DNA from: Bryobacterales bacterium
GTDB lineage: Bacteria > Acidobacteriota > Terriglobia > Bryobacterales > UBA6623
NCBI GenBank assembly: GCA_026713545.1
Contig: JAPOOG010000064.1
Location: 62,001 to 126,000 of the forward strand
DNA: 64,000 bases
Reading direction: 5' to 3'
In this document: positions 651-4,169 of the stretch, one piece after another
How the letters are laid out: each line of letters opens with the position of its first letter
How positions within the stretch are numbered: the first letter of the stretch is position 1
Translations under genes and position numbers: made by a program
Notes under the pieces: model-generated
The model's input: the letters and a program-made list of their open reading frames with translations, nothing else
Told to the model about the DNA's origin: nothing
The model's database searches: none

Positions 651-2786
651 CTAATCTCCGCTAACCCCCACCAATTCTTGACCTGCCGGCTTCGCGGCAC
701 CGTTCCCCGAGCCGCTCCCCAAGCCGTTGATCTGAACCAAGCCGGGCTTCGTTGTCTCTTTGAGAACCTGCTCGCGGTACATCTTCATCAACCGATCTTG
801 TTCATCCTTGGTCAGAATCTTCTTCTTCGAAGCTTCCGAACGCGGAATCTCCCCCTTGGCGCGCGCTTCGGCCAGCTTGCGGTCGCGCTCCATGATCTTC
901 TCTTCGTGGGCGTTCGCGGGGCCTACGTAGACTTGCGCACCGCGGACGGCATCGGCTTCGTCGATGGACAGATCGAGCCCGTCCCGGCCCTTGACTTCCT
1001 CGACCTTCTTACCGCCAGCATAGATCTTGTGCCGGCCGTGCTCGCCATACCATTCGCTGAGCGTGGCCGTCATGTGGATCTTCTCGATGATGTTCCGCCA
1101 GCCGATGCCCGTGTTGTAGGCGCAGAAGGAAATCTCGCCCTCTTGCGTGCCGTAGGGAATGATGCACATCTCGGTGCGACGGAAGTCGTAGTTGAACAGG
1201 TCTTGGAACCACATACCGGCAACGAACAGGAAGTTCCACGGGTCATTGCGGCGCGCGACACCCTTGCCGTAATTCTTGCCCGAAAGTCCGAATGACTTAT
1301 CGAACTTCGTCAGCAACGAGAACAGGCTGAACGAAGAGGGCGCCTTCTCCGGATGATAGTTTTTCAGCAGCGCCAAACCCATCTGGAAGTTGGTCATCTT
1401 CGCCGAGCGGGCGCTGTCGGTAATTGTGCGGATGTCCTGCACGAACTGCGGAACGTTGATGAACTCGGCGACCGGAGCCATCTCTTTCGTCTGCTTGTTG
1501 ATCATCAGCGCTGTGCCGACTCCGCAGTTCGGGTGGCAACCACAACTGACTTGCCCCCAGGTGGCTTGCGGGCCGTGCGCCACATCCGCAGCGTCGGCGA
1601 AGGATGACATGATCGAGATGGGGAACCAGTCGCGGTTCGGTTCGGTGATGCCGACCTGCTGCTTGACGTCACGTGCGAGGTGCGAGAGCGTGTAGCGCTG
1701 CCGCAAGCGGCGCTCGTCGGTGATCTCTTCGTCACGGCCCGTGAACGACACCGGCTGGAAAGCGATAAAGGCGACTTTTCCGGGGTTGTCCATTGCGAAC
1801 CGGATGATCGGACCGACCTCTTCGTTGTTCACATTGTTGACGAGAGTCGTGACGAGAATGATCTCCGTGCCCGCCGAGTGCATGTTCTCGATGGCCTTCA
1901 ACTTCACGTCGAACAGGTTGCCGATCTTGCGGTGCGAGTTTGGCTCGTTGCCGATGCCGTCGAACTGCAGATAGGCATAGCGAAGACCCGCGTCGGCCGC
2001 CAGTTCGGCAAATTCCTTGCTCTTGGCAAACTCGATGCCGTTTGTCGCCGCCTGCACCGAGTTGAAGCCTATCTGCCGAGAGTATTGAACGGCCTTGATG
2101 AAGTAAGGCGACATGGTGGGCTCGCCGCCGGAAAACTGCACCGACATCTGCCGGCGCGGCTTGATCTTCATCGCGTTGTCGAGGATGGTTTTGATTTCAT
2201 CCCATTCAAGCTCGTGGACGAAGCCGACCTGGTTGGCGTCCATGAAGCAGGGGTCGCACATCATGTTGCAGCGGTTCGTCAGGTCAACGGTCAGGACGGA
2301 GCCGCGGCCGTACTTGACCGTGCTGCTGCCGTGATTGTGCAGATCCTTGTCGTTGTGGGCGCGGATGTCACGGCCCGGGAAGTTCGACTCGATGTGCTCG
2401 AGGAACTTCGAGTCGATCGCCATGATGTCTTCGACGCGGCCGTGCGTCGGACAGTCCTTGACCATCCAGATCTCGTTGTCGCGCTCGAGGATCGTGGCCT
2501 TGACCTCGCCGACCTTTTGCGACTTGAGAATCTTGTAGTCGACTTCACCGTTGAGGATCGCCTCACGCGCTTCGCGTACGCACTTGGGACAGAGCGAATC
2601 GGTCTGCCGAGGCCAGCCCAGAGGCGGCTTCGACTTTTCCCAGGTCTTGAGCATGGGCTTTTCCGACCAGTTGGGTGTGAACGACGGGTTTGGCGCCTTT
2701 TTCGTGTTGAAGTACTGCACCGCGTTCCACATCCCGGCCGCGGCCTTGGTCAGGCCTTTTTCGACGTACTTAACAGGTCTTTGCAT
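651..2786 (-). CDS. Radical SAM enzyme with N-terminal CxxC module, tetraether/membrane-spanning lipid synthase-like
   Basis: A 711-residue radical SAM protein. Start chosen at 2786 because AGGAGA sits 7 nt upstream; an upstream ATG at 2813 has no ribosome site. Order of motifs: a CPKC pair at residues 66-69 answered by DCPTHG at 111-116 (a zinc-ribbon or rubredoxin-like knuckle), the radical SAM cluster CNMMCDPC (Cys173, 177, 180), GGEP at 220-223, a cysteine-rich CGCHPNC at 415-421, and a C-terminal pair, Cys541 and 'FCAYN' Cys555. This order matches the archaeal MJ0619/Tes family and bacterial homologues tied to membrane-spanning lipids. If the assignment holds, it would couple lipid tails by radical chemistry at the membrane. 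The last ~110 residues are charged and glycine-rich. It stands alone between a terminator and a 333-bp upstream gap. The radical SAM call is certain; the lipid substrate is inferred. Confidence 0.85.
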   Translation of the reverse strand: MQRPVKYVEKGLTKAAAGMWNAVQYFNTKKAPNPSFTPNWSEKPMLKTWEKSKPPLGWPRQTDSLCPKCVREAREAILNGEVDYKILKSQKVGEVKATILERDNEIWMVKDCPTHGRVEDIMAIDSKFLEHIESNFPGRDIRAHNDKDLHNHGSSTVKYGRGSVLTVDLTNRCNMMCDPCFMDANQVGFVHELEWDEIKTILDNAMKIKPRRQMSVQFSGGEPTMSPYFIKAVQYSRQIGFNSVQAATNGIEFAKSKEFAELAADAGLRYAYLQFDGIGNEPNSHRKIGNLFDVKLKAIENMHSAGTEIILVTTLVNNVNNEEVGPIIRFAMDNPGKVAFIAFQPVSFTGRDEEITDERRLRQRYTLSHLARDVKQQVGITEPNRDWFPISIMSSFADAADVAHGPQATWGQVSCGCHPNCGVGTALMINKQTKEMAPVAEFINVPQFVQDIRTITDSARSAKMTNFQMGLALLKNYHPEKAPSSFSLFSLLTKFDKSFGLSGKNYGKGVARRNDPWNFLFVAGMWFQDLFNYDFRRTEMCIIPYGTQEGEISFCAYNTGIGWRNIIEKIHMTATLSEWYGEHGRHKIYAGGKKVEEVKGRDGLDLSIDEADAVRGAQVYVGPANAHEEKIMERDRKLAEARAKGEIPRSEASKKKILTKDEQDRLMKMYREQVLKETTKPGLVQINGLGSGSGNGAAKPAGQELVGVSGD

Positions 2787-3119: not shown

Positions 3120-4169
3120 ATGGACGCCGATACCGTCAAATCCCTGGCCCGCGAAACCGGCTTCGACCTCGTCGGCATCACTTCAACGGGGCCCACGCCG
3201 GCATCGGCCTTCTACCCGGAGTGGCTGGCCGCCGGGTACCACGGAGAAATGAGTTACCTCGAAGGCCACCGCGGGGTCCTCCGCAGCGAGGCCCGGAAGC
3301 TGCTGACGTCCGCTAAATCTTTGATTTCACTGGGGCTGATCTATGACACTCGCCAACCATACACTCCTGATGTGGAGTTCACTTCCCAAGCCTGGATTTC
3401 CCGCTACGCCTGGGGGGCCGACTATCACGACGTAGTCCGGCGGCTGCTCTATCAACTCGTCGAGCGCATCGAGAAGCAGACCGGCCCGTTCGAACACAAG
3501 GTATGTGTCGATACCGCACCGCTTCTGGAGCGCGCCTACGCCGCCCAAGCCGGGCTTGGCTGGATCGGCAAGAACACTTGCCTCATTAACGAGAAGATCG
3601 GATCCTGGGTCTTCCTGGGCGAGATCCTGACGTCGCTCGAACTGGCATTCGACGACCCGGCCCCGTTCCGCTGCGGCACCTGCACCCGTTGCATCGATGC
3701 CTGTCCGACCGACGCCCTTGTGCCGATCGTACCGACCGCGGGCCCTTCACACGCGCTCGATTCGACCAAGTGCATCTCGTATTGGACCATCGAGCTGCAC
3801 GGCCCCATTCCCGAAGACGACCGCCCCGGCCTGGGCCCGCACGTGTTCGGTTGCGACATCTGTCAGGATGTTTGTCCCTGGAACCGCCGCGCCCCTCAAA
3901 CCGACCGACCCGATTTCCAGCCCCGCAATGCCCTCCCGGAACTGGAGGAGCTGGCGAAACTCACCGAGGATGAGTTCAACGAACGGTTCGCCGACTCGCC
4001 GATCGAACGCGCCCGCTACCGGGGCTTCCTCCGCAATGTGGCGGTGGCGATGGGCAACAGCGGCAACCGCGATTTCCTGCCGCTGCTTGAAAAGCTCGCC
4101 GCCAATCCAGACCCGCTCATCCAGGAACACGCCCGCTGGGCCATCGAACAGATCGGTGCCATCGAGTGA
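3120..4169 (+). CDS. queG: Epoxyqueuosine reductase QueG
   Basis: 349 residues, the normal family length. QueG removes the epoxide oxygen from epoxyqueuosine in tRNA, the last step of queuosine synthesis, using cobalamin and two [4Fe-4S] clusters in the cytoplasm. The sequence shows the N-terminal domain with 'GLGWIGKNTCLI', then two bacterial-ferredoxin cysteine sets, 'CGTCTRCIDACPTDAL' and 'CDICQDVCPWN', and a C-terminal HEAT-like tail. It is not next to other queuosine genes; queC lies 43 kb away at 46695. No strong Shine-Dalgarno sequence is seen. Confidence 0.96.
   Translation: MDADTVKSLARETGFDLVGITSTGPTPASAFYPEWLAAGYHGEMSYLEGHRGVLRSEARKLLTSAKSLISLGLIYDTRQPYTPDVEFTSQAWISRYAWGADYHDVVRRLLYQLVERIEKQTGPFEHKVCVDTAPLLERAYAAQAGLGWIGKNTCLINEKIGSWVFLGEILTSLELAFDDPAPFRCGTCTRCIDACPTDALVPIVPTAGPSHALDSTKCISYWTIELHGPIPEDDRPGLGPHVFGCDICQDVCPWNRRAPQTDRPDFQPRNALPELEELAKLTEDEFNERFADSPIERARYRGFLRNVAVAMGNSGNRDFLPLLEKLAANPDPLIQEHARWAIEQIGAIE

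Follow-up and report, generated by a model that had tools for sequence, protein, structure and literature searches.

A Tes-family radical SAM protein without the N-terminal cluster as candidate iso-diabolic acid synthase in Acidobacteriota

Introduction

Iso-diabolic acid is a membrane-spanning lipid typical of soil Acidobacteria and a likely building block of the brGDGTs, which are used in palaeoclimate work. Within the Terriglobia, it makes up 12–30% of the fatty acids in strains of Edaphobacter and 27–49% in the Occallatibacter group. Pyrinomonas is likewise rich in it, and it is a frequent finding in subdivisions 1, 3, and 4 (PMC4644332).

The closest described enzyme is the archaeal Tes, represented by MJ0619, in which four metal sites have been defined: a rubredoxin iron (C9, C12, C33, H36), an N-terminal auxiliary cluster, [4Fe-4S]N (C73, C77, C80, and a His), the radical SAM cluster, and a C-terminal cluster, [4Fe-4S]C, with the labile ligand Met439; Met439 and Tyr459 are fully conserved across 1,000 archaeal Tes (PMC9433317). 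Zeng et al. described bacterial homologues of Tes and suggested that they act in brGDGT synthesis, and with the Methanosarcina acetivorans protein as the query a single homologue was found in Edaphobacter aggregans (32% identity) and further homologues in Koribacter (42%) and Solibacter (40%) (PMC8941075). E. aggregans produces both iso-diabolic acid and, under low oxygen, brGDGTs (PMC8941075). Solibacter usitatus possesses Tes homologues ('one or both') and brGDGTs, with no detectable iso-diabolic acid (PMC10087280). The function of bacterial Tes is unconfirmed (PMC11868695).

Two other enzymes are relevant to the comparison. For bacterial Mss (Sahonero-Canavesi 2022, cited in PMC13274423), the proposed reaction is the conversion of iso-fatty acyl lipids to iso-diabolic acid, the same as the one proposed here, and Mss models are reported to have the Tes architecture. 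Neither Mss nor Tes is believed to distinguish ester from ether lipids (PMC13274423). Gms, another radical SAM enzyme, cross-links the tails of GDGTs (PMC11186832).

Results

Gene and motif content

The window is the whole stretch of 64,000 nucleotides analyzed here, from a Bryobacterales genome estimated to be 99% complete, and the features of the gene are collected in Table 1. The gene of interest had been placed correctly by the first-pass annotation, which gave no strand; the open reading frame lies on the minus strand, with an ATG at 2786, a stop codon at 651–653, and an alternative TTG start at 2813, nine codons upstream. All of the cysteine motifs listed in that annotation are present at CPKC (C66/C69), C112-P-T-H115-G, CxxxCxxC (C173/C177/C180), CGCHPNC (C415/C417/C421), and the C-terminal pair C541 and C555 (FCAYN), and their occurrence is far beyond chance.

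Table 1. Features of the gene and its protein (positions in the window)
Feature	Position	Strand	Remarks
Clade-A Tes-family radical SAM gene, 711 aa	651..2786, stop included	-	sole strong Tes-family match in the genome
N-terminal extension, residues 1-57	2616..2786	-	predicted helix 4-27 with high hydrophobic moment; Tes lacks it
Rubredoxin-like domain, residues 58-123	2418..2615	-	C66, C69, C112, H115 = Tes C9, C12, C33, H36
H150/H152 region	2307..2369	-	both His invariant in 122 sequences
Radical SAM core, residues 160-350	1737..2309	-	C173, C177, C180, F181, G221, Q344, S347, R351
CGCHPNC	1524..1544	-	C421 = Tes C338, [4Fe-4S]C ligand by position; C415, C417 clade-invariant
C-terminal cluster	1122..1214	-	M525 = Met439, C541 = C455, Y545 = Tyr459, C555 = C470
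C-terminal tail, residues 590-711	654..1019	-	partly helical with disordered end; not in Tes, variable within the clade

Both the CxxxCxxC motif and a partial TIM barrel place the protein among the radical SAM enzymes (Pfam PF04055, E = 9e-17, over its cut-off; structure model), and the N-terminus matches Zn_ribbon_HMPTM (E = 1e-13). The top PDB match by sequence is MJ0619 (7tol, E = 7e-64), and the best NCBIfam match is Tes (NF045702), with a score of 325.5 bits that falls below the cut-off of 450. The closest named relative is a protein with 98% identity from the MAG Bryobacterales bacterium RHO3_bin_12. PHROGs profiles returned only generic radical SAM matches to the protein, and a promoter and terminator scan remained at chance level. 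The plus-strand frames across from the gene (678–2801), the longest of 373 aa, appear to be mere by-products of the gene's codon use and not genes themselves.

Cofactor sites compared with archaeal Tes

Alignment with MJ0619, in which the three [4Fe-4S]C cysteines were assigned by position, revealed that the protein retains the CxxC...CxxH rubredoxin site, the radical SAM cluster, and the ligands of [4Fe-4S]C (C421, C541, C555) together with M525 and Y545. Across 122 relatives (112 clade A and 10 A2 sequences), these residues are invariant with the exception of one C69S substitution. The same alignment exposed a feature that the first-pass annotation had missed: all four ligands of [4Fe-4S]N are lost in every one of the 122 sequences. 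At the positions of Tes C73, C77, C80, and His, the window protein has D or a gap, H152, S155, and K158, such that the lost ligands are replaced by H-x-H-G-S-S. H152 and S155 (A in one sequence) stand at C77 and C80 across the relatives, H150 is invariant, and C415 and C417 are invariant as well. The Tes adenosine contact R210 is also lost and replaced by K, Q, A, H, or G.

The window protein and archaeal Tes/GDGT-MAS (MJ0619, 7tol, 7tom; NF045702) therefore have in common the rubredoxin site, the radical SAM core, the C-terminal cluster ligands, the Met439 and Tyr459 equivalents, and the overall fold, but differ at 32% identity in the two losses described above and in extensions of 57 residues at the N-terminus and ~120 residues at the C-terminus. 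The N-terminal extension, by its predicted helix, possibly makes contact with the membrane. The rubredoxin-like domain carries an insert of ~23 residues relative to Tes.

Structure model

An AlphaFold2 model built with 39 family members (pLDDT 79, pTM 0.83) matches the full-length MJ0619 fold. A Foldseek search with the model identified 7tom (E = 3e-31, TM-score 0.81 by target), and VIA-align superposed 473 residues on 7tom at 3.4 Å (Z 36.1, residues 58–585), with MoaA as the next protein at Z 19. The comparison of structures suggested alongside the first-pass annotation thus recovers the Tes fold, with the correspondence of cysteines taken from the alignment. The model is weak (block means 53–61) at residues 141–160, the region of the lost cluster, and at residues 171–190, the radical SAM loop.

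Phylogeny of the family

In a tree of 61 sequences and 610 columns, rooted on two groups of paralogues (clades C and D), MJ0619 branches first, followed by clade B, and clade A plus A2 form a single group (100/100) nested among the clade B sequences, with clade A on a long branch of its own. The protein falls within the Tes group, as the first-pass annotation anticipated, and support is high both for the A/A2 group and for the split between it and clades C and D. Since A and A2 are nested among cluster-bearing clade B sequences, the simplest interpretation is that the cluster was lost secondarily; the exact joining point is unsure because long branches were flagged, including MJ0619 and two A2 rows.

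Clade B differs from clade A in that it keeps the N-terminal cluster motif (CPxxCGLCxxH), is closer to MJ0619 (37–45% identity, compared with a clade A mean of 31%), and is rarer among relatives; two scanned members scored 472 and 591 bits with the Tes model. The Koribacter and Solibacter homologues of PMC8941075, which belong to the same family and the same phylum as clade A, are probably clade B, judging from their 40–42% identity to archaeal Tes. Conversely, the E. aggregans homologue is probably clade A, because a value of 32% fits the clade A mean and not the clade B range.

The Tes-like paralogues of clade C (L162, L167, L168, L170, L172) and clade D (L163, L164, L169) are present in Chloracidobacterium and in part of the genomes of the order. 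They have an N-terminal CPxDCGxCPDH and altered C-termini and score approximately equally with the Tes and TrsS models. One of these clades may be related to Mss.

Distribution

The clade A gene occurs as a single copy in its own genome, where no further member of the Tes family is present. Among the 61 genomes of its family and order, two (G036, G050) have no Tes-family match beyond the generic radical SAM level, several others have cut or partial matches, and four carry clade B over the Tes cut-off. In the phylum sample, clade A was found in all 52 genomes of its own class, its own included (E ≤ 3e-290), and at E near 0 in many other families. Some families have matches of 1e-200 to 1e-250, which were A2 in those checked, whereas in others the best matches reach no more than 1e-80 to 1e-100, which proved to be clade B wherever checked, or are generic. 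Clade A was not found in many families of the sample, most of f25, f49, and f44 among them. Named carriers of clade A include the Pyrinomonadaceae, Chloracidobacterium, Blastocatellia, and the Terriglobia isolate Acidipila rosea, where it is the only match.

Beyond the phylum, a sample of 101 genomes surrounding a Gemmatimonadetes MAG includes eight with clade A or A2 (L174, L175, L133; G475, G479, G487, G490, G495). This is not simply contamination, because the G490 copy lies on a contig of more than 2.6 Mb.

Genomic context and ether-lipid markers

The neighbors of the gene in the window are ThuA, QueG, an HpcH/HpaI aldolase, PIG-L, and ThiC, and no lipid operon was found at the gene, either here or in 80 loci around clade A genes. 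The divergent epoxyqueuosine reductase QueG (3120–4169, plus strand) adjoins the gene upstream, with a homologue nearby in 15 of the 80 loci. Recurrent neighbors, named by eye from representatives, include a phosphomannomutase-like protein, QueG, SurE, and a protein-isoaspartate methyltransferase.

Ger/PlsA is the ester-to-ether enzyme, and PF09989 was taken by us as one of its markers. The other, PF01869, was chosen on the basis of PMC13274423. A search limited to these two Pfam families gave no match in the genome, and both were matched in the control Thermotoga maritima. With no Ger/PlsA marker in the genome, the product there is probably ester-bound and not a tetraether.

Discussion

With a probability of roughly 0.7, the gene encodes a Tes-family enzyme that joins two iso-C15 lipid tails at their methyl ends to form iso-diabolic acid membrane-spanning lipids. 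The present analysis shows the family, the fold, the retained catalytic ligands, the clade, the single copy, and the distribution, and from these we infer the lipid substrate (two saturated iso-branched glycerolipid tails), the iso-C15 specificity, and the product. By homology with MJ0619, SAM would be cleaved at the C173/C177/C180 cluster, and the resulting 5'-deoxyadenosyl radical would abstract a hydrogen from the end of a lipid tail inside a hydrophobic tunnel. A sulfur of [4Fe-4S]C (C421, C541, C555, with labile M525) would then hold the carbon radical until the other tail, activated by a further SAM, attacks it to form the C–C bond. Clade A fits such a synthase because of the lipid data from the Terriglobia (12–49%) and the single 32% homologue of E. 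aggregans, and it is the best candidate iso-diabolic acid synthase, though not a proven tetraether synthase. It should be noted that several observations count against an iso-diabolic acid product: the lipids of S. usitatus, which do not fit a simple one-gene-one-lipid rule, the loss of R210 and of the N-terminal cluster, which might alter the chemistry relative to Tes, and the lack of a lipid operon. To our knowledge there is no report of iso-diabolic acid from the Gemmatimonadetes group, which likewise weighs against it.

The first-pass annotation named the gene a candidate for either a tetraether or a membrane-spanning lipid synthase. Lipid coupling as in Tes/MJ0619 has good support from the sequence and fold, from the catalytic residues, and from the tree and the distribution. 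The tetraether half of the proposal lacks such support, given a score of 325 of 450 bits, a clade of its own, one missing Tes cluster, and the lack of both Ger/PlsA Pfam markers in the genome, and a synthase of the membrane-spanning lipid iso-diabolic acid describes the gene better. That Acidobacteriota make iso-diabolic acid and branched tetraethers through such homologues, as was also stated there, is a published hypothesis and not a demonstration (PMC8941075, PMC11868695). An enzyme that couples iso-C15 diethers to form brGDGTs, much as archaeol is the substrate of Tes, would nonetheless account for the brGDGTs that E. aggregans makes under low oxygen with a lone homologue at the clade A level of identity (PMC8941075), and would agree with the proposed indifference of Mss and Tes to ester or ether substrates (PMC13274423); given the two unmatched Pfam markers and the sub-threshold Tes score, we regard it as improbable, although an ether route through ElbD or Agps is conceivable.

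A different outcome on a lipid substrate, such as cross-linking, methylation, ring formation, or the coupling of a different tail, is suggested by the separate clade and its long branch, by the loss of the N-terminal cluster and Arg210, by the additional N- and C-terminal parts, and by the precedent of Gms (PMC11186832). This too is unlikely, as the radical-holding cluster of Tes is invariant along with the equivalents of Met439 and Tyr459, and in genomes with clade A alone the Tes family supplies no second candidate for making iso-diabolic acid. Least probable is a radical SAM enzyme of peptide or cofactor metabolism with only ancestry in common with Tes: the lack of adjoining lipid genes and the recurrent proximity of QueG speak for it, but the fold match spans the whole catalytic body of Tes, the gene is a near-universal single copy in lipid-rich groups, and the neighbors are mostly unrelated housekeeping genes.

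The iso-diabolic acid synthase reading can be extended, much more tentatively than the reading itself, to a division of labor that we consider less likely than not. The widespread clade A, without the N-terminal cluster, would produce iso-diabolic acid in ester-bound form in Acidobacteriota and part of the Gemmatimonadota, and the rarer, canonical clade B would perform a different step. At the lost site, the invariant H-x-H and/or the additional C415/C417 would now form a metal site of another kind.

The acidobacterial coupling enzyme is unconfirmed (PMC11868695), and the split into two clades points to one gene as the candidate. Clade A also provides a natural example of a Tes-type enzyme that lacks the N-terminal cluster, a site with no assigned role in Tes (PMC9433317). 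Searches with a threshold of 30% identity, as in PMC11868695, would miss or mix clades A and B. Single in-frame stop codons were also seen within clade A/A2 matches in L149 and in genomes G110 and G396, which may represent assembly errors, end-of-frame read-through, or decay.
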